Source: Accumulibacter sp. (GTDB lineage Bacteria > Pseudomonadota > Gammaproteobacteria > Burkholderiales > Rhodocyclaceae). Taken from it: DNA of 7,318 bases. This document shows positions 184 to 7,318 of the stretch, piece after piece. Position 1 is the stretch's first letter. Each line of letters opens with the position of its first letter. Both the position numbers and the translations under genes were made by a program. The stretch is taken from contig JAISQQ010000306.1 of assembly GCA_031274075.1 (NCBI GenBank), positions 1 through 7,318 on the forward strand, given 5' to 3'. Below the pieces are notes generated by a model. That model searched no databases, was not told the DNA's origin, and saw only the letters and a list, made by a program, of their open reading frames with translations.

Positions 184-530
184 GAAGCTGTTCACGATCT
201 TCCCTTGAACGTAAAGTCGACCTATGCGCGTGAAAACAACGACGGTTCGGTAGGGCGGGAAAGCGAAGCGCCTCCCGCCGATCCTTTTCACGGCGCAACG
301 CGCCGCATGATTCAAAGGCCGCAGAATAATAGAGGCGGCGGCTGCGCCGCCGGAGAGAACGACCGGCGGGAGGCGCTGCGCTTTCCCGCCCTACGGGGTG
401 CGCCAACGGTTTGGCGCCAATGCCTAGGTGGGCCGGAGACCCGCGCCCCAGGAAAATCACCACGATGCCAACGCCACAGAGTGCAATGGCCCTGCCGCGC
501 TCCCAGAGAAGATCGTAAACAGCTTCTCAG
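180..530. repeat. MITE-like or BIME-like non-coding element with 23-bp terminal inverted repeats
   Basis: The 23 bases at 180-202 (starting CTGAGAAGCTGTT) are matched as the reverse complement by 508-530 (ending AACAGCTTCTCAG), with one mismatch. They enclose about 305 bases that hold no credible gene. The interior is full of palindromes: a second inverted-repeat pair at 248-280/364-396, a 6-bp stem at 291-296/300-305, a 7-bp stem with a GCTG loop at 334-351, and a 7-bp stem at 400-406/411-417 that overlaps the perfect 10-base palindrome TTGGCGCCAA at 411-420. This design (short, non-coding, terminal inverted repeats, internal hairpins) is that of a miniature non-autonomous element or a REP/BIME cluster. 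No flanking direct duplication was found: the bases next to the tips differ. The element sits exactly between two convergent genes and provides the TGA stop of each. It may also act as a two-way transcription barrier, but no T-rich terminator tract is present. Confidence 0.7.
248..396. repeat. inner inverted pair of REP-like palindromic units
   Basis: Positions 248-280 and 364-396 are 33-base reverse complements of each other with two mismatches. Each unit is itself a hairpin: GGCGGGA at 254-260 can pair with TCCCGCC at 273-279, and the same arms bound the right unit, where an inner GCGC/GCGC pair strengthens the stem. Two such units in opposite orientation, separated by 83 bases, form the BIME/REPIN arrangement that single-domain Y1 transposases (RAYT/TnpA-REP) spread in other proteobacteria. 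No such transposase is in the window, so mobilisation in trans is inferred. Confidence 0.65.
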
Positions 531-1219
531 ATCACGCTCTTGACCCGCTCCCAGCTCTTCATGACGTGGTCGACCATGACCGTCGACAGGCGCTGGCCGT
601 CCCGCGCCTTGAGCGCCGCGATCATTTCTTCGTGTTCGGCGACGGCCGCGGCCCATGATTCTTCCGTCCGGTCGCCGATGTAGCGGATGCGCTTCATCCG
701 CGTCTGGAGAATGTCGTGCACCAGGTACAGCGACTCGTTGCCGCTCAGCGCGATCAGCGTCGAGTGGATACGCTGGTTGAGCTTGAAGTAGCGCAGGCGG
801 TCGCGCGTGGCGTAAAACTCGAGCATCTCGCCGTGCAGGCGGCAAACCTCCAGGATTTGCGTATCGGACGCGTTCTTGCAGGTGAGGTGAGCCGCCATTT
901 GCTCGAGATACGCCAGCACGTCCATCATGTCGCGCACGTCTTTATGCGTCAGCCGGCACACCACCGCGCCGCGGCTGGGAACCAGTTCGACCAGGCCTTC
1001 CGACGCCAGCACCTTGAGCGCTTCGCGCAGCGGCGTGCGCGAGACGCCCAACTGCTGGCAAAGCTGCCCTTCGTGGATGCGCGCGCCGACGTCGATCAAT
1101 CCCTCGATGATCATGTCGCGGATGCGCGAAACGACCACGTCATGCAGGCTGGCGCGTTCGATGCGCCTGTCTTCGGGAGGAGCTTCCGAAACTTCCCTAT
1201 CCTTCAAGCTAGTCAGCAC
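527..1219 (-). CDS. GntR-family transcriptional regulator, FadR subfamily with FCD ligand domain
   Basis: With the start chosen here the product has 230 residues, a normal FCD-regulator length. A winged helix-turn-helix spans about residues 24-90 and contains the signature LGVSRTPLREALKVLASEGL at 57-76 with the wing PSRGAVV. An all-helical FCD domain spans about 95-222, with likely metal or ligand residues His152 (NQRIH), His196 (EHEEM) and His218 (DHVMKS). An Asn (residue 149) stands where many relatives carry the first Asp ligand. The frame has no ATG before the DNA-binding domain. GTG at 1217-1219 was preferred because AGGTG lies six bases upstream and a promoter-like pair ends near 1260; a TTG at 1351 would add 44 poorly conserved, Arg-rich residues. 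GTG at 1228 is another option. FCD proteins usually repress a divergent catabolic operon and are released by an organic acid, which fits the divergent PdxA-like gene. The stop lies in the repeat element tip. Confidence 0.88.
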   Translation of the reverse strand: MLTSLKDREVSEAPPEDRRIERASLHDVVVSRIRDMIIEGLIDVGARIHEGQLCQQLGVSRTPLREALKVLASEGLVELVPSRGAVVCRLTHKDVRDMMDVLAYLEQMAAHLTCKNASDTQILEVCRLHGEMLEFYATRDRLRYFKLNQRIHSTLIALSGNESLYLVHDILQTRMKRIRYIGDRTEESWAAAVAEHEEMIAALKARDGQRLSTVMVDHVMKSWERVKSVI

Positions 1220-1259
1220 ACTGCTCACCTGATCCGATTCAATTTTCAGACAATCCGTA

Positions 1260-1288
1260 AATATGGCCCTGTGAACGGCAACCGTCAA
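1260..1288 (-). promoter_or_regulatory. candidate sigma70-type promoter of the GntR regulator gene
   Basis: Read on the minus strand, TTGACG (1283-1288) is followed after 17 bases by CATATT (1260-1265), a five-of-six and a four-of-six match to the consensus boxes. Transcription would begin near 1252, leaving a leader of about 30 bases before the GTG at 1219. This also argues against the longer start at 1351. It is judged by eye only. Confidence 0.4.
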
Positions 1289-1342
1289 TATTGCGCGGCC
1301 ACGAGAACCTCCCCGCCGGCCGTCAAACCGCACTCTGCATTC

Positions 1343-1357
1343 AGAATTCAAAATTCT
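1343..1357. promoter_or_regulatory. small palindrome between divergent genes, possible operator
   Basis: AGAATT and AATTCT form a perfect 6-bp inverted repeat around a CAA centre in the A/T-rich region between the divergent regulator and PdxA-like genes, just upstream of the rightward -35 box. A small dyad in this place is where an FCD regulator often binds, but the sequence is A/T-rich and such dyads arise easily by chance. Confidence 0.3.
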
Positions 1358-1368
1358 TTATTTTTAAT

Positions 1369-1398
1369 TTGACATTCCGGATAATTTAGTAGCATCAT
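1369..1398 (+). promoter_or_regulatory. candidate sigma70-type promoter of the PdxA-like gene
   Basis: A perfect TTGACA (1369-1374) is followed after 18 bases by CATCAT (1393-1398), which matches four of six positions of the -10 consensus. Transcription would start near 1405, about 30 bases before the ATG at 1436 with its GGGAGAG ribosome site. That would exclude the upstream ATG at 1397 as the translation start. The -10 box is weak, so activation or a different -10 is possible. Confidence 0.45.
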
Positions 1399-1435
1399 GC
1401 GCCTAAAGCAAATGATTCCGGGAGAGACAAAGTCC

Positions 1436-2482
1436 ATGCAAGTCCAACAGCCCACCATCGCCCTGGCCATGGGCGACCCCGCCGGCATCAGCCCGGAGCT
1501 CGCCGCCCGATTGCTGGACAATGCGGAGATCCGCGCCGCGGCCCGCTTCGTGGTTTTCGGCGACCGGCGCATCCTCGACGAGGGCGCGAAGATTGCCGGC
1601 GTGACGCTCGACATCGCGGTCGTCCCGCCGGATTCGCCGGATTTGCCATATGACGCCGCAGAACGGCCGGTGCTGGTCGACCTGGGCCATCTCGCGCCGC
1701 AAGACGTCAAGCGCGGGGAAGCCACCCCGGAAGGCGGCGCCTTCGCGCTCGAGAATTTCCGCCAGGCGCTGGTCATGGCCAGGGAAGGGCGCGCCGACGC
1801 CGTCTGCTTTACGCCCTTCAACAAGAAAGCCATGCGCTACGTCTATCCGGCCTACGACGATGAAATCCGCTACGCCGCGGAGGTGACGGGATTCCAGGGC
1901 GCCGCCCGCGAATTCAACGTGCTGGACAATCTGTGGAATTGCCGCGTCACCTCGCATATCCCCTTGTCGAAGGTGGCCTCCGCGTTGAGCGTCGAGCGCA
2001 TCGTCGGCGAGCTTGCGCTGGCCGACCGGTGCATGCGCGAAGCGGGAATCGAAAAGCCGCGCATCGCGGTCGCCGGGCTCAATCCGCATGCCGGCGAGGG
2101 CGGCAATTTCGGCCGGGAAGAAATCGAGATCATCGAACCCGCCGTCAAGCGGGCGATCGAGAAAGGCTTCACGGCCTCCGGGCCGTATCCCGCCGACACG
2201 GTGTACGTGCGCGCGCATAAAGGCGAGTTCGACGGCGTCCTGAGCATGTATCACGATCAGGGACAGATCGCCATGAAGCTGTTGGGCTTCGACCGGGGCG
2301 TCACCATGATGGGCGGTTTCCCGTTCCCGATTTGCACGCCGGCGCACGGCACCGCCTACGACATCGCCGGGCGGGGCATCGCCAGCCTGGGCGCGAGCCG
2401 GGCGGCGGTGCTGCTGGCCGCGCGCATGGCCGCCCGGAATCTGGCGGAAAAAAACAAATCCCCTGGCGCCTGTTCCAAGTAG
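1436..2482 (+). CDS. pdxA2: PdxA-family NAD-dependent dehydrogenase (PdxA2-like, catabolic subgroup)
   Basis: The 348-residue product fits the family length. Conserved blocks run in order: MGDPAGISPE (12-21), SHIPLSKVA (173-181), AGLNPHAGEGGNFGREE (213-229), GPYPADTVY (249-257), MYHDQGQIAMK (271-281) and PAHGTAYDIAGRG (302-314). His174, His218 and His273 match the three divalent-metal ligands of PdxA. The GHTE block that binds substrate in the vitamin B6 enzyme is absent; around residues 136-143 the sequence reads VYPAYDDE. PdxA paralogues include D-threonate/D-erythronate 4-phosphate dehydrogenases and the terephthalate cis-diol dehydrogenase TphB. Together with the carboxylate transporter genes and the acid-sensing type of regulator, this points to oxidative decarboxylation of a hydroxy-acid or diol rather than pyridoxal phosphate synthesis; the substrate is unknown. 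The start at 1436 was chosen for GGGAGAG nine bases upstream; ATGs at 1397 and 1412 lack a ribosome site. The last ten or so residues (from about AEKNKSPG) are unlike the rest in composition and may border a junction. Confidence 0.9.
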   Translation: MQVQQPTIALAMGDPAGISPELAARLLDNAEIRAAARFVVFGDRRILDEGAKIAGVTLDIAVVPPDSPDLPYDAAERPVLVDLGHLAPQDVKRGEATPEGGAFALENFRQALVMAREGRADAVCFTPFNKKAMRYVYPAYDDEIRYAAEVTGFQGAAREFNVLDNLWNCRVTSHIPLSKVASALSVERIVGELALADRCMREAGIEKPRIAVAGLNPHAGEGGNFGREEIEIIEPAVKRAIEKGFTASGPYPADTVYVRAHKGEFDGVLSMYHDQGQIAMKLLGFDRGVTMMGGFPFPICTPAHGTAYDIAGRGIASLGASRAAVLLAARMAARNLAEKNKSPGACSK

Positions 2483-2561
2483 TGCTGCTGTTGTTGTTGT
2501 TTACGAAGCTGTTGGCGTAACAGATGTAAAGAGGGAAGCTATATAAAACAAAGGAGTGGTC

Positions 2562-3839
2562 ATGGCGGGTGCCCTGATGATTATCGTGTTTTTCGTTCTC
2601 ATGTTTTTGGGCATCCCCATTGCGTATTCCCTGGGGCTTTCCGCGTTGTTCTACATGCTCGTTTTCGTTGATGTCCCATCCATAATCATTGTTCAGCAGA
2701 TTCTCGCCGGGGTGGACAAATTTACCCTCATGGCCATTCCTTTCTTTATTATTGCCGGTTCGCTCATGGAATTCGGAGGAATCTCCCACCGTATTGTCCG
2801 GTTTTCCAAATCGGTGGTCGGCCCTCTCCCCGGGGGGCTGGGTATTGTGACCGTCGTCTCCAGCATGATCTTTGCCGCCATGACCGGCGCCGGCGCGGCG
2901 ACCACCGCGGCGGTGGGAAGCATGATGATCCCGGCCATGCGGGATTCGGGCTATGACGAGGGGTTTGCGTGCAGTCTTCAGGCTTCCGCGGGCATCATGG
3001 GTCCGCTTATTCCTCCCAGCATTCTGATGGTGCTTTACGGCGTGACTGCCGGCGTCTCCGTGGGAGATATGCTGCTGGCGGGTCTGGTTCCCGGTATTTT
3101 CGCCGGCCTGCTGTTGATTATCGTCGTTATTGCCATAAGCATGAAAAAAAACTACAAGGGCGACGGAAAATTTTCCCTGGTGGATATCATCCAGTCCTTT
3201 ATTGACTCTATTTGGGCGATTCTTGCGCCGGTTATCATTCTGGGCGGCATTTATTCCGGCATTTTCACTCCCACCGAAGCGGCGGGAGTCACCTGTTTTT
3301 ACAGCCTTCTCGTGGGACTTTTCATTTACAGGGAAATCAAGCTCCAGGATGTGGGTCAGGTCATGTTCAAATCCTTCAAGCTGGCGGCGGGAATCATGCT
3401 GATCGTCGGAACTACCCAGGCCTTCGGCTGGGTACTTTCCAAGGAGCGGATCCCCCAGTTGGTTGCCACTTGGTTTGCTTCGCTCACCGGCGACCCGATA
3501 ATTTTCATGATCGCCGTATGTATCATGCTTCTGGTGGCGGGCTGCTTTATCGACGCCGTGCCCGCCCTGCTGGTGCTGGCGCCGATTCTGGTCCCCGCGG
3601 CGATGAAATTCAATATCAATCCGATTCACTTCGGCGTCGTCATGGTGTTTACCCTCTGCATCGGACTCGTGACGCCTCCAGTCGGCATAAATATTTTTGT
3701 GGCTTCATCGGTAAGCAGAGTTCCTGTACACCGGATTTTTCCGAAACTCTGTCCTTTCATTGCGGTGCTGTTGACCGGAATGTTCTGTGTGATGTTTTTC
3801 CCGCAGCTTTCCCTGTTTCTGGTAACACTCAATAAGTGA
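2562..3839 (+). CDS. dctM: TRAP transporter large permease subunit DctM
   Basis: The 425-residue, very hydrophobic product has about a dozen membrane helices and the usual DctM length. Family landmarks are MAIPFFIIAGSLM (57-69), the small-residue stretch TGAGAATTAAVGSMMIPAM (108-126), GIMGPLIPPSILMVLYG (144-160), GIFTPTEAAG (233-242) and GLVTPPVGINIFV (368-380). The two repeated P-P/P-T-E motifs sit in the re-entrant hairpins that bind sodium and substrate in TRAP transporters. The protein would form the inner-membrane elevator domain and take substrate from DctP using the sodium gradient, with DctQ as scaffold. AAGGAG lies five bases before the ATG at 2562; a GTG two codons earlier overlaps that site and was rejected. 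It is unusual for dctM to come first and to be separated from dctQ by two genes. Base composition is lower in G+C than the preceding gene. Confidence 0.96.
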   Translation: MAGALMIIVFFVLMFLGIPIAYSLGLSALFYMLVFVDVPSIIIVQQILAGVDKFTLMAIPFFIIAGSLMEFGGISHRIVRFSKSVVGPLPGGLGIVTVVSSMIFAAMTGAGAATTAAVGSMMIPAMRDSGYDEGFACSLQASAGIMGPLIPPSILMVLYGVTAGVSVGDMLLAGLVPGIFAGLLLIIVVIAISMKKNYKGDGKFSLVDIIQSFIDSIWAILAPVIILGGIYSGIFTPTEAAGVTCFYSLLVGLFIYREIKLQDVGQVMFKSFKLAAGIMLIVGTTQAFGWVLSKERIPQLVATWFASLTGDPIIFMIAVCIMLLVAGCFIDAVPALLVLAPILVPAAMKFNINPIHFGVVMVFTLCIGLVTPPVGINIFVASSVSRVPVHRIFPKLCPFIAVLLTGMFCVMFFPQLSLFLVTLNK

Positions 3840-3866
3840 GGAAGTAATTTTCTTAAGGAGAATCGT

Positions 3867-4856
3867 ATGAAAAAGCTATCCCTGATTTGTGCGGCGCTGC
3901 TCTGTGTAAGCCTCACGGCTTTCACGGCTGGAGCTCAGACCAAGCCCATCAAGCTGAGCGTGTTCTCTGGTTCCATTCCCAAGAACAGCCCTACTGGCGA
4001 AGCCTTGGGTTATATGGTGGAATTGATCAACAAGAATGCGGGTGGAAGCCTTCTGGCAGAGGCTTTCTACGATACCGAACTGGGAGACGCCACTTCCATG
4101 GTGCAGGGGCTCCAGCAGGGGACTATCGACATTGGCATCTCAGGTGATTCTTATTACTCCGGCCTGGTTCCGGATATCCAGGTTTACGAGCTGCCCTTCC
4201 TGTTTTCCAGCGTCGAGCAGGCGAGAAAAACCGTTGACGGCCCTACCAAGGAAACCATCTTCAAGAAACTTGAAGCAAAAGGAATCATCGGTCTCTGCTT
4301 CTGGGAAAACGGGATGCGCCAGCTTTCCAACAATGTGCGGCCCGTAAAAACCCCGGACGATCTCAAGGGCATCAAAATGAGAACCCTCCCCGCCAAGGTG
4401 CAGGTGGAAGCCTGGAAGGCCCTGGGCGCCCTGCCTACCAGCATTGATGCGGCGGAGCTATACACCGCTCTCCAGCTAGGGACTGTAAGCGCCCAGGAAA
4501 ACCCTCTGGCGGAAATCGAATTCCGGAAATTTTATGAGGTTCAGAAATACATAACCCTTTCAAACCATGTGTATACTCCCTTCCTCATGTCCTTGAGCAA
4601 AAAGACCGCGGATAAACTGAACCCTGAACAACTCAAAATTGTAAAAGAGGCCGCCCTGGCCGGGCAGACCCGCGAGCGTGAACTGGCGACCAAGGCCAAC
4701 GCCGCTGCCAAGCAACTACTCCTGGACAAGGGAATCATTTTTGAAGAAAACCCGGACCTCGATAAATTCAAGGCCCTCACCTTGCCAGTCTATACCGTGT
4801 TTACCAGCGCCAACGGTGACGAGCTTTTGAAAGCCGTTCAGAGTTCGTTGAAATAA
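3867..4856 (+). CDS. dctP: TRAP transporter periplasmic substrate-binding protein DctP
   Basis: The 329-residue protein begins with a clear signal peptide (MKK, hydrophobic core, cut near AGA-QT at about residue 23). The mature part has the DctP order: LGDATSMVQGLQQGTIDIG (72-90), VYELPFLFSSVEQAR (106-120), the MRQLSN segment (150-155), DDLKGIKMRTLPAKV (164-178) and GTVSAQENPLAEI (205-217). Arg172 in the KMRT segment is the residue expected to clamp the substrate carboxylate, and Asn212 in QENP the usual second contact, so the ligand is probably an organic acid. No finer prediction is safe. The gene follows dctM by 27 bases with TAAGGAG before its ATG. A strong hairpin lies about 30 bases after the stop, consistent with making more binding protein than permease. 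Confidence 0.95.
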   Translation: MKKLSLICAALLCVSLTAFTAGAQTKPIKLSVFSGSIPKNSPTGEALGYMVELINKNAGGSLLAEAFYDTELGDATSMVQGLQQGTIDIGISGDSYYSGLVPDIQVYELPFLFSSVEQARKTVDGPTKETIFKKLEAKGIIGLCFWENGMRQLSNNVRPVKTPDDLKGIKMRTLPAKVQVEAWKALGALPTSIDAAELYTALQLGTVSAQENPLAEIEFRKFYEVQKYITLSNHVYTPFLMSLSKKTADKLNPEQLKIVKEAALAGQTRERELATKANAAAKQLLLDKGIIFEENPDLDKFKALTLPVYTVFTSANGDELLKAVQSSLK

Positions 4857-4885
4857 ACCGTAAAGGAGCACAGCAGCGGGAAATC

Positions 4886-4911
4886 AGCGACAGGCATTCA
4901 TGCCTGTCGCT
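4886..4911 (+). promoter_or_regulatory. intercistronic perfect hairpin after dctP
   Basis: AGCGACAGGCAT and ATGCCTGTCGCT form a 12-base perfect inverted repeat around a two-base centre (in practice an 11-bp stem with a TTCA loop). No T-run follows on either strand, so it is not a standard intrinsic terminator. Its place between a binding-protein gene and the next gene of the same unit suggests an mRNA 3'-end protector or partial attenuator that raises dctP expression relative to the downstream genes. The role is inferred; the structure is directly visible. Confidence 0.65.
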
Positions 4912-4999
4912 CAAAACGAACCTGGGGCATCCTTTCCCAAGTGGCATGGTCGAGATTCCGGCCTTCAAGGCGGGGTTTCAAACCGGAGTTGGTTTTACG

Positions 5000-5686
5000 A
5001 TGAAAAAACGGATTGTCGATTTATGTTTGCCGATCGAGGAACATTGGAGGTACGGCATCAAGTTTTCAAAGCCGCGCTCCCATGCGGCGGGAGATCCTTG
5101 GCAGTGCACGGCTTTTAACCTCGAAACCCACTGGTTTACCCACATCGACGCGCCGCTTCACCACGATCCCCAGGGTGATGACCTTTCGGCGTATCCCATT
5201 CAGGATTGGTGCATGGGTGAAGCCTTGGTCCTGGATTTCGTTGATGTAAAGGACAACGAGGGAATTACCGGCGCCATGCTGGAAAAGGCGGCAGCGGGTT
5301 ATGACCGGCACTTTGATTACCTTCTTTTGCGCACCGACCGGGCAAAAAAAGTATCCTGGAAGGAATATGCTTTCTGGGATAACGCGCCCTACGTCACTCC
5401 TGACGGCGGCGACTGGATCCGTGATTACCGTCCCAAGGTGGTAGGATTCGACTTTCCTCAGGATTATGATATCCGTAAAGTCCGCCTTGCCAAGGACCTG
5501 CACGAGATTCATCAGCCCGTTCATGAGAAAGTGCTGAAGGAAGGCAAAATCCTGATGATCGAGTACATGTACAATCTCTGGAGCATCGGCTCTCCGGTCT
5601 GCACCATTGTGGCCCTGCCACTCAACATTCCCAATATCGATGGCGTTCAAATCAGGGTTATCGCCATCGTGGAAGAAGAGGGTTGA
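5000..5686 (+). CDS. cyclase-family metal-dependent hydrolase (kynurenine formamidase / isatin hydrolase-like)
   Basis: The 228-residue product matches the length of the cyclase family. The metal motif normally written H-x-G-T-H-x-D-x-P-x-H appears as HWFTHIDAPLH at residues 44-54, so His44, His48, Asp50 and His54 are retained while the usual Gly is Phe46. The second half follows the family: LLLRTDRAKK (108-117), VVGFDFPQD (147-155), HQPVHEKVLKEGK (171-183) and IEYMYNL (187-193), where the family has 'H-x-x-L-L...I-x-E-x-L-x-N-L'. Relatives hydrolyse an amide or ring bond (N-formylkynurenine, isatin) with Zn or Mn in the cytoplasm; no signal peptide is present here. Lying between dctP and dctQ, it probably acts on the imported compound or a close product. 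The start at 5000 has GGAG eleven bases upstream; an ATG at 4946 has no ribosome site. The next gene begins one base after its stop. Confidence 0.88.
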   Translation: MKKRIVDLCLPIEEHWRYGIKFSKPRSHAAGDPWQCTAFNLETHWFTHIDAPLHHDPQGDDLSAYPIQDWCMGEALVLDFVDVKDNEGITGAMLEKAAAGYDRHFDYLLLRTDRAKKVSWKEYAFWDNAPYVTPDGGDWIRDYRPKVVGFDFPQDYDIRKVRLAKDLHEIHQPVHEKVLKEGKILMIEYMYNLWSIGSPVCTIVALPLNIPNIDGVQIRVIAIVEEEG

Positions 5687-5687
5687 A

Positions 5688-6173
5688 ATGAACAAACTGG
5701 CCGCCGGTTTTGCCAGGATAGTGGAAAACCTGATCGGTTACTTTGTCGTGCTGGCCGTCTGTCTCGTCACCTATGGAGTAATCGCCCGGATGCTGAATAT
5801 TTCCGTTGCCTGGACGGACGAGCTTTTGCGCACCATCTTTTTATGGCTTATTTTCATAGCCGCCGCCATGGCGTACAAAACCGATAATCTCATAGGATTC
5901 GATTTGCTGAACGATATGATGACAAAACGGCCCAGGTTATTGTTATGCCTTAAATTTTTGCAAGGTATCGGCGCCCTGATTTTCGGCGTCTTCATGTCGG
6001 TGCACATGTTTACCATTGTTTCCACCCAGTTCAGTACCAGCGAACTCACCCCGGTTCTGAACCTCCCACTCTGGTTTGTCAATTCAGGCTGTCTTCTTGG
6101 GAGCGTGCTGACCGTCGCGTTTGTCTTTCAAAAATTCTTCCAACTGTTAACGGGGAAAAATCGGCATGAATGA
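5688..6173 (+). CDS. dctQ: TRAP transporter small permease subunit DctQ
   Basis: The 161-residue product has four predicted membrane helices (about 15-35, 47-65, 86-108, 126-150), as expected for DctQ. The conserved segment after the first helix, ISVAWTDELLRTIFLWLIF (38-56), is the family's 'W-x-[E/D]-E-x-x-x-x-x-x-x-W' region. DctQ binds DctM in the inner membrane and steadies its scaffold. The ATG lies one base after the stop of the hydrolase gene (TGA-A-ATG), with an AAGAGG-type ribosome site inside that gene, so the two are probably translationally coupled. The usual order in TRAP operons is P-Q-M; here dctQ is last and the hydrolase precedes it. Its final codons overlap an ATG (6166) in another frame that seems to be the start of a further, broken gene. 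Confidence 0.92.
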   Translation: MNKLAAGFARIVENLIGYFVVLAVCLVTYGVIARMLNISVAWTDELLRTIFLWLIFIAAAMAYKTDNLIGFDLLNDMMTKRPRLLLCLKFLQGIGALIFGVFMSVHMFTIVSTQFSTSELTPVLNLPLWFVNSGCLLGSVLTVAFVFQKFFQLLTGKNRHE

Positions 6174-6246
6174 AAAAATTTACTCAAACGTCGGTATCCA
6201 TGAATCGTTTTCGTTCCAGCGGACTAGAAGTTGTTTTTATCCTTGA
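6166..6246 (+). pseudogene. short ORF overlapping the dctQ end, possible remnant of a truncated next gene
   Basis: An ATG at 6166 overlaps the last eight bases of dctQ (ATGAATGA), the kind of coupling seen between operon genes, and has CGGGGA about ten bases upstream. It gives 26 codons starting MNEKIYSNVGIHES and stops at 6244-6246. The first 15 or so residues look like an ordinary protein start; the rest (RTRSCFYP) does not, and one arm of an inverted repeat begins at 6212. The reading offered is that the TRAP operon once continued and was cut here when the block was joined to the tctC-like gene. The parent family cannot be recognised from so few residues, and a chance ORF is possible. Confidence 0.35.
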
Positions 6247-6283
6247 TTTCTGATTTCCAAGCGAATCAGTCCAAGCTGGAACG
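6212..6283. repeat. imperfect inverted repeat at the right edge of the TRAP block
   Basis: CGTTCCAGCGGACT (6212-6225) pairs with AGTCCAAGCTGGAACG (6268-6283) with a two-base bulge; a second stem, CTGATT/AATCAG (6250-6255/6264-6269), lies inside. An A-run rather than a T-run follows on the plus strand, so it does not look like a simple terminator for dctQ. It may be the operon's 3' structure or a scar of the joining event. It lies in the 189-base stretch between dctQ and the tctC-like gene, which otherwise holds only the ORF remnant and the A/T-rich leader of that gene. Confidence 0.5.
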
Positions 6284-6362
6284 GTTGTAAAAAAACCATT
6301 CCGGTGGTTTGTTGTGTGTCGTTGTTTTATTAAATTCAATTTCAACTACGAGGAGTCATGCA

Positions 6363-7318
6363 ATGCTCAAGAGCAAACTGATTGCCACCTTGCTGGCTGG
6401 CGCGTTTTATGCGGTGGGGGCAAGCGCGGCGTGGACGCCGGACAAGCCGGTCGAATTCGTCGTTACCAGCGGCGCCGGCGGGGGGACCGATACTTTCACC
6501 CGCACCATCCAGTCGATCATTTCCAAGAACAAGCTGATGAACGCCCCGATCGTCGTGATCAACAAGGGCGGCGGCGCGGGCAGCGAGGGTTTCGTCCATG
6601 GCGCGAGCGAACAGAACAATCCCTACCGCGTCACCTTTGGCACCAACAACGAGTGGCTGCTGCCGCTGGTCGCCAAGATGGGGTACGCCACGGATGATTT
6701 CGCTCCCGTTGCCGCCATGGCGCTCGACGAATTCCTGATCTGGGTCAACGCCAAGTCGCCGTATGCGGACGCCAAGAGTTTCATCGAGGCGGCCAAGAAG
6801 GGAGACGGCCTGCGCGCGGGCGGTTCGCAATCCAAGGATACCGATCAAACCTTGATCAGCATCGTCAGCGAAGCCACGGGCGGTAAATTTACCTACATCC
6901 CGTTCAAGAGCGGCGGCGAGGCCGGCATCCAGCTCGCCGGGGGACACATCGATTTCAATGTCAACAATCCGAACGAGAACATCGGCCATTGGAAAGCCAA
7001 TCTGGTCCGTCCGCTTTGCGTGTTCAGCGTAAAGCGCATGGCCGCCGGCCCGAAAGTCACCAAGGACATGGCGTGGTCCGACATTCCGACCTGCCGTGAA
7101 GCCGGCATACCGGTCGATTCGTACCAGATGCCGCGCACCATCTGGGTCGCGGCCGGCGTGCCCAAGGAGGTCGTGGCGTTCTATTCCGATCTCATGGCCA
7201 AGGTGCGCCAGACGGACGAATGGAAGGCGTATATCGCGCGTACCTCGCAGAGCGACGCCTTCCTGGCCGGGGACGAGTTGCGCGAGTACATCACCAGGGA
7301 TACCGCGCGCGCCTATGG
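6363..7318 (+). CDS. tctC: tripartite tricarboxylate transporter substrate-binding protein (Bug/TctC family), 3' end cut by window
   Basis: The frame stays open from the ATG at 6363 to the window edge, giving 318 residues of a family usually 320-330 long, so only a few are missing. A signal peptide covers about residues 1-22 (MLKSK, hydrophobic core, ASA-AW). The mature start TPDKPVEFVVTSGAGGGTDT (25-44) is the Bug hallmark, with the glycine-rich loop that coordinates a carboxylate through backbone and water. Other family blocks are APIVVINKGGGAGSEG (61-76), AMALDEFLIWVN (118-129), SQSKDTDQT (155-163), YIPFKSGGEAGIQLAGGHID (178-197) and DIPTCREAGIP (240-250). The protein captures a carboxylic acid in the periplasm for a TctAB pair, presumably encoded further right or elsewhere. 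AGGAG lies seven bases before the ATG; an ATG five bases earlier leads to an immediate stop. A weak promoter-like pair, TTGTTG (6309-6314) and TAAATT (6331-6336), lies in its leader. Codon use resembles the PdxA-like gene, not the TRAP block. Confidence 0.93.
   Translation, partial: MLKSKLIATLLAGAFYAVGASAAWTPDKPVEFVVTSGAGGGTDTFTRTIQSIISKNKLMNAPIVVINKGGGAGSEGFVHGASEQNNPYRVTFGTNNEWLLPLVAKMGYATDDFAPVAAMALDEFLIWVNAKSPYADAKSFIEAAKKGDGLRAGGSQSKDTDQTLISIVSEATGGKFTYIPFKSGGEAGIQLAGGHIDFNVNNPNENIGHWKANLVRPLCVFSVKRMAAGPKVTKDMAWSDIPTCREAGIPVDSYQMPRTIWVAAGVPKEVVAFYSDLMAKVRQTDEWKAYIARTSQSDAFLAGDELREYITRDTARAY

Follow-up and report, generated by a model that had tools for sequence, protein, structure and literature searches.

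A TRAP transporter and cyclase-family gene block probably transferred into a native pdxA-tctC locus of Accumulibacter sp.

A 3.8-kb block of four genes, dctM-dctP-cyclase-dctQ, lies beside the pdxA stop codon and between pdxA and tctC, and our analysis indicated that it was very probably gained horizontally. In all eight same-genus genomes having both flanking genes, tctC directly followed pdxA and the insert was absent between them. Because pdxA and tctC are direct neighbours in these relatives, a distant lineage is the likely source of the block, and we regard synteny as the decisive evidence for the insertion. The window, i.e., the whole stretch of DNA analysed, is one entire contig of 7318 bp from a draft genome of 474 contigs (completeness 88.7%, contamination 2.8%), and both tctC and the first gene are therefore truncated.

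The native locus and the edges of the insert

Pfam assigned the genes of the window to the families GntR/FCD, PdxA, DctM, DctP, Cyclase, DctQ and TctC. The GntR/FCD-family regulator (527..1351, start codon not settled) is native and divergent from pdxA; it lies on the minus strand, and every other feature given here lies on the plus strand. Its homologues were 62-71% identical and occupied the matching position in the eight native loci, one of them being cut by a contig end. The native PdxA-family dehydrogenase (1436..2482) was 71-86% identical in the eight genomes. It belongs to the PdxA superfamily (288.8 bits, Pfam cut-off 27) and scored below the cut-off of NCBIfam TIGR00557 for 4-hydroxythreonine-4-phosphate dehydrogenase (260.4 vs 290.35), its best solved relative being the D-threonate 4-phosphate dehydrogenase 6e85. 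The native TctC, a TTT solute-binding protein (6363..7318, cut by the contig end), was 70-82% identical beside pdxA in the same eight genomes. Further annotation of one native locus placed a TctA gene behind tctC; the rest of the TTT system thus probably lies beyond the window. The order and orientation of GntR, PdxA and TctC were the same in these loci as in the window, whereas the 3.8 kb of TRAP/cyclase DNA was missing. The sequence-only reading had proposed a transfer of the TRAP block into an existing locus and had suggested looking for pdxA directly followed by tctC elsewhere; the eight empty sites and the lack of a close DctM in the genus (see below) support that proposal, and none of these eight relatives carried the same full order. 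It had also pointed to two uptake systems, TRAP and TTT, with one regulator, which we take as only an arrangement. Two further candidates were not counted as empty sites: a tctC paralogue on another contig of the own genome (75%), whose neighbour was an alcohol dehydrogenase gene and not pdxA, and a second pdxA-like gene in one genus genome (G024), where TctC was about 2 kb off and just 28% identical.

Tight placement of the breaks came from two of the eight native loci, those of the two closest relatives (G018 and G027), the other six spacers being too diverged. Local flank alignments to both stopped at 2460 and resumed at 6292, and MAFFT set the limits of the insert at 2460 and 6288. When the flanks are brought together, 2 native nt remain unaccounted for, and the inserted block therefore spans about 2461..6287 (about 3827 nt), after which the native pdxA-tctC spacer restarts (6288..6362). 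Junctions had been expected at 2450 and 6350 but are best set at 2460/2461 and 6287/6288. The insert start adjoins the pdxA stop codon: the final codons of pdxA (2461-2482) derive from the insert, and the native stop codon stands beside the break. At the 3' edge, a hairpin (6213..6282) was predicted by RNA folding (-27.6 kcal/mol for 6195-6300, z -2.9, 2 of 200 shuffles equally good). This edge was also considered as a host repeat, which was rejected upon finding one weak 28-nt match among 27 other genus genomes. The search for direct repeats of at least 8 common to both insert edges returned only AAAAAAAC, which is not a convincing edge repeat. No integrase was found, the four genes of the insert being transporter and cyclase genes by Pfam, and no tRNA occurs in the window. 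Thus none of the features expected of a self-mobile genomic island (an integrase, a tRNA site or convincing flanking repeats) was observed.

Genes of the block and their relatives

The block encodes DctM, the TRAP large permease subunit (2562..3839), DctP, the TRAP solute-binding protein (3867..4856), a cyclase-family, kynurenine-formamidase-like metal hydrolase (5000..5686) and DctQ, the TRAP small permease subunit (5688..6173). DctM and DctP also passed the NCBIfam dctM and dctP cut-offs. With DctP, DctQ and DctM all above the Pfam cut-offs, the subunit set of a DctP-type TRAP transporter is complete, as in known systems of this type; in contrast to them, dctP and the cyclase gene intervene between dctM and dctQ. 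The nearest solved DctP was PDB 7bbr (E 5.9e-56), which we take to be CxaP, a sugar-acid binder of Advenella. Residues R120, R151, R172 and R220 of DctP, candidates for the conserved carboxylate-binding arginine of such transporters, were invariant in 12 aligned sequences. The cyclase gene starts at 5000 and not at 4946, since close homologues start at the matching residue. Its product belongs to the Pfam Cyclase family (67.8 bits, cut-off 23.1) and fell below the cut-off for true arylformamidase (KynB), NCBIfam TIGR03035 (43.1 vs 223.05 bits).

The relatives of the block were found in other taxa, unlike those of the flanks, which are 70-86% identical within the genus. In the other 27 genomes of the genus, a search at E<=1e-95 found no DctM of more than 45% identity. 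DctM was likewise absent at E<=1e-130 from 198 other genomes of the family and 398 of the order, as was DctP at E<=1e-85 from 397 others of the phylum; a scan of genome contigs yielded two DctM relatives at 33-34% identity. The own genome held one cyclase-family match. Cyclase matches at E<=0.001 occurred in 7 of 58 other genomes and all were weak, with 33% and 28% identity in two order-level relatives and 31% in two genus genomes, while three genus genomes matched the query solely at its N-terminal end, which pointed to the miniature repeat described below. Among the best 120 matches listed for each protein, the nearest homologues were metagenome proteins (DctM 92%, DctP 92%, cyclase 94%), followed by Spirochaetales at 73-79% and named Clostridia at 47-69%. 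The matches listed for DctM included an 89% protein deposited as Betaproteobacteria bacterium FACS1894158 on a 45-kb contig; a literature search on this name returned no paper. In a DctM tree of 62 rows, the window sequence fell within a 14-row clade (100/99), Spirochaetales came next (16 rows, 100/100), and the own and genus paralogues lay outside a 44-row clade (100/100). Homologues were probably together in other organisms, judging by identical contig sizes: cyclase and DctP in Spirochaetales (3878 bp), DctP and DctM in Lachnospiraceae (38869 bp) and in Clostridium sp. AM58-1XD (219614 bp), and cyclase, DctP and DctM together on contigs of 7708, 36026 and 2784598 bp. All plasmid-borne relatives of the cyclase and DctP were below 60% identity, and of 25 pattern matches to DctP in viral contigs none was confirmed. 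Judging by titles or the start of abstracts, none of the papers listed on transfer (4 of 4 and 12 of 75) dealt with this block.

As to the route, the block may have come as a circle, its order dctM-dctP-cyclase-dctQ being a rotation of dctQ-dctM-dctP-cyclase or of dctP-cyclase-dctQ-dctM. In the block the opening falls between dctQ and dctM. Among 18 paralogous systems inspected within the genus, 15 had dctP ahead of dctM, two had dctM ahead of dctP (one being dctQ-dctM-dctP) and one showed no dctP in its stretch. However, no recombinase or attachment repeat was seen in the window and the gene order in the donor lineage may be the same as that of the block, so that we consider this route unlikely.

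Base composition and a miniature repeat before the cyclase gene

The G+C content fell from 0.67 (1436-2460) to 0.52 in the insert (2461-6287; 0.518 to three digits) and returned to 0.60 downstream. The best three-segment likelihood split, computed blind to genes, lay at 2445 and 6410, near the homology junctions. The change near the end of pdxA and its reversal before tctC were borne out; the single-line counts that had suggested it were reproduced as well (0.70 at 2041-2100, 0.483 at 4021-4080, 0.483 at 5341-5400 and 0.583 at 6721-6780). In stretches of about the insert's size from 17 other contigs of the own genome (50-nt steps), the lowest G+C was 0.563 vs 0.518 in the insert, indicating that the drop exceeds local noise within this sample. 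Codon usage was less telling. A common codon style of the two flanks was confirmed; however, the four genes of the block are low in GC3 and codon preference but not extreme, since lower GC3 was found in 15-23 and a lower codon index in 10-25 of 71 host ORFs (picked by length, two of 20 contigs being left out). Codon style alone is weak evidence for transfer, and composition was rejected as proof of it.

Between dctP and the cyclase gene we found a copy of a miniature interspersed repeat of the host family (4875..5004), which recurs elsewhere in this genome and in other members of the family; its ends were read from 35 copies. The 3' end of the repeat overlaps the cyclase start ATGAA, and the copy sits between the start codon and a Shine-Dalgarno-like AAAGGAG (4862..4868), at which ribosomes probably once bound to translate the cyclase gene. 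There were 31 further matches in the own genome, some being halves of one copy. It was also matched in 9 of the 23 other genomes searched from the genus and in 7 of the 68 family genera, against a single marginal match among 16 outgroups at order level. Its presence is patchy: none was found in the seven empty-site genomes searched (G005, G006, G013, G018, G022, G024 and G026; G027 was not among them) or in plasmids. Rfam gave no match at the gathering score, returning weak sub-threshold matches alone. An ATG stood at the repeat end in 53 of 60 copies, including that of the window. It opened a frame of at least 60 codons in 24 of the 53, compared with 18 for the +2 frame and 0 for the +1 frame; as the +1 frame is mostly stopped by TGA by construction, these counts are only suggestive, and the repeat was not accepted as a start-codon supplier. 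Shine-Dalgarno-like bases lay within 20 nt left of the repeat in 8 of the 35 copies.

The repeat also bears on whether the block is an assembly or binning artefact, in which host pdxA/tctC DNA was joined to DNA of another gut bacterium; an artificial join had been raised by the sequence-only reading as well. The composition step, the fragmented draft and its contamination would fit such an error, but two false joins would be needed, and their outer halves would have to coincide at a single native site to within 2 nt. Moreover, the block holds a repeat found again in the own genome, the genus and the family, and the 89% DctM was deposited under another name. We therefore judge a false join to be very unlikely. 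Still less credible is an ancestral pdxA-TRAP-cyclase-tctC operon lost by the sampled relatives, which the betaproteobacterial name of the 89% DctM relative would suit, but which requires clean losses in all eight empty-site genomes and is at odds with the lower G+C of the block and the grouping of DctM with Spirochaetales and Clostridia.

Proposed history and significance

Under horizontal gain, the donor lineage would lie near Spirochaetales and Clostridia, and the block probably arrived via a betaproteobacterium. Transcription from the pdxA promoter would continue into the block, DctPQM would import a sugar-acid-like carboxylate, and a lactone or amide of this carboxylate would be cleaved by the cyclase-family hydrolase, with the native TctC system remaining downstream on a ribosome site that would be its own. 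The miniature repeat probably entered after the arrival of the block, separating the ribosome site of the cyclase gene from its start codon, and it may now provide the cyclase leader. More speculatively, and in our opinion improbably as a whole, the host family may possess a mobile leader of miniature size that is as yet undescribed (80-225 nt, ends AGCAAGAAATTAGCG...GGAGTTGGTTTTACG) and that would insert immediately ahead of ATGA start codons, giving the gene a new ribosome site; here it would have landed between the ribosome site of foreign origin and the start codon of the cyclase gene, thereby capturing an operon that had just been imported and linking foreign DNA to host translation.

The block is a real, ordinary transporter block that was probably transferred, and its insertion is an unusually clean case of an ordinary process. 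With the empty site in eight relatives, the locus offers a near base-exact before-and-after view of a foreign transporter block entering a catabolic locus. Furthermore, the repeat exactly at the start codon of a foreign gene suggests a testable way in which imported genes may fit into host translation.

Native locus and edges of the insert

The window is the whole of contig C142 (7318 bp), which comes from a 3.18-Mb draft genome of 474 contigs (88.7% completeness, 2.8% contamination), probably that of a betaproteobacterium. Pfam identified a GntR/FCD regulator (527-1351, minus strand), PdxA (1436-2482), DctM (2562-3839), DctP (3867-4856), a Cyclase family protein (5000-5686), DctQ (5688-6173) and TctC (from 6363, truncated where the contig stops). 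For the cyclase gene, a start at 5000 was preferred to one at 4946, because close homologues have their first residue at the corresponding position. In 27 other same-genus genomes, PdxA (E<=1e-60) was present in eight and TctC (E<=1e-40) in the identical eight. In all eight, the GntR gene, pdxA and tctC were contiguous with tctC directly after pdxA, and in the one native locus annotated further a TctA gene lay 3' of tctC. A second TctC (75% identical) was observed elsewhere in the own genome (locus L102, 5667-7707); it follows a gene for an alcohol dehydrogenase, and a sigma-54 regulator of the PrpR type is encoded divergently. Local alignments of the flanks with the closest native loci, those of genomes G018 and G027, stopped at 2460 and resumed at 6292, leaving 2 native bases unaccounted for, while MAFFT placed the edges of the insert at 2460 and 6288. 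The tight placement came from these two genomes only; in the other six loci the spacer has diverged and local alignments ended early or overran. The native pdxA stop codon adjoins the break, and thus the final codons of the window pdxA derive from the insert.

The sequence-only reading had noticed a TRAP block of lower G+C, and its four single-line counts were exact on recount. The G+C content was 0.518 in the insert, 0.668 in pdxA upstream and 0.597 downstream of the insert, and a three-segment split of the window, blind to genes, set its boundaries at 2445 and 6410. Among 17 other own contigs, the lowest stretch of approximately insert size was not below 0.563. GC3 was 0.62-0.67 in the block genes and 0.79-0.85 in the flanks, but of 71 host ORFs sampled, 15-23 were still lower than the block genes; GC3 and codon preference were thus less telling than G+C in setting the block apart. 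That the window is an artificial contig is unlikely, since it would need two false joins whose outer halves met, by chance, at one native site, and a miniature repeat that is dispersed in the own genome has one of its copies inside the block, at 4875-5004.

Kin of the block and possible route of entry

Within the own genome, the closest other DctM was 39% identical, and DctM matches at E<=1e-95 in 13 of the 27 other genus genomes reached 45% at best. DctM at E<=1e-130 was found in none of 198 other family genomes and none of 398 other order genomes, and DctP at E<=1e-85 in none of 397 other phylum genomes; these samples partly overlapped and were drawn from larger groups, with the best 4 to 8 candidates scored per genome. 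Among the best 120 homologues each of DctM, DctP and cyclase from a set of 5.8 billion proteins, the nearest were unnamed metagenome proteins (92%, 92% and 94%, respectively) and one protein under the name Betaproteobacteria bacterium FACS1894158 (DctM, 89%), followed by Spirochaetales (73-79%) and then named Clostridia (47-69%). A tree of DctM was built from 62 rows: the window sequence, 43 selected homologues, and paralogues from the own genome (7) and the genus (11). In it, the window and FACS1894158 fell within a 14-row clade (100/99) next to Spirochaetales (16 rows, 100/100), and the own and genus paralogues lay outside a 44-row clade (100/100).

The order dctM-dctP-cyclase-dctQ can be obtained by rotating either dctP-cyclase-dctQ-dctM or dctQ-dctM-dctP-cyclase, and dctP stood ahead of dctM in 15 of 18 genus paralogous systems examined. 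It is possible from this order that the block came via a circular intermediate; however, neither a recombinase nor an attachment repeat was seen. The only direct repeat of length at least 8 common to both insert edges was AAAAAAAC, and the window held no tRNA gene. A strong hairpin was observed where the insert ends on its 3' side (6213-6282); it did not recur in the genus except for one weak 28-nt match.

The miniature repeat at 4875-5004

The own genome gave 32 repeat matches at E<=0.01, the window copy counted; some of these are two halves of a single copy. Of 23 other same-genus genomes searched, 9 also had matches (one marginal), as did, marginally, one of 16 order-level outgroups. A family-wide sample of 297 genomes from 68 genera showed the repeat in 21 genomes and 7 genera (E<=1e-6, with two candidates per genome scored). 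Searches of seven empty-site genomes (G005, G006, G013, G018, G022, G024 and G026) did not reveal it, and it is therefore patchy across the genus. Foreign genes flank it on both sides, so the block has probably resided in the host family.

The 35 copies with both ends (window copy counted, at most 4 mismatches tolerated per end) were 80-225 nt long, with a AGCAAGAAATTAGCG-like start and a GGAGTTGGTTTTACG-like end, and in most of them the 3' end was immediately 5' of an ATG. The ends were hairpin-rich, with copies at many loci (e.g., L157, L159 and L140), and the ATG of some started genes that by eye look response regulator-, RfaH- and aldo-keto reductase-like. The window copy has AAAGGAG (4862-4868) on its 5' side and the start codon of the cyclase gene on its 3' side, and reads as an insertion that would have separated an older ribosome site from the start codon. 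Its fold beat shuffles (z -2.6), with no Rfam family at gathering score and no plasmid match. The ATG opened a frame of 60 or more codons in 24 of 53 copies versus 18 of 53 for the control frame, which is only suggestive of a leader role. Next to the GntR gene, on its 3' side, nested inverted repeats were observed at 180-530 (26-nt arms 180-205/505-530, 92%, around 40-nt arms 250-289/355-394, 90%), parts of which were found again on other own contigs; this looks like another host miniature element.

Predicted transcription and function

On the plus strand of 1150-6400, the sole promoter-like site was at 1369-1398, upstream of pdxA. Promoter-like sites were no commoner than in shuffles (3 observed versus 3.6 expected), and we can therefore only infer read-through from pdxA into the block. 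The solved relatives of the cyclase were 4cog, 4cz1 and 4co9 (E 7.9e-6 to 1.5e-4); it is distantly related to kynurenine formamidase and fell below the arylformamidase cut-off, which together point to another amide or lactone as the likely substrate. The nearest solved DctP was 7bbr, which we take to be the sugar-acid binder CxaP. CxaP is described as handling xylonic, fuconic, galactonic and gluconic acids (PMC12076931). DctPQM is predicted to be an importer of an organic acid. The host draft of 3.2 Mb gave 27 DctM-like matches, a few of which may be counted with caution as fragments or distant relatives, and the bacterium is thus rich in TRAP systems.
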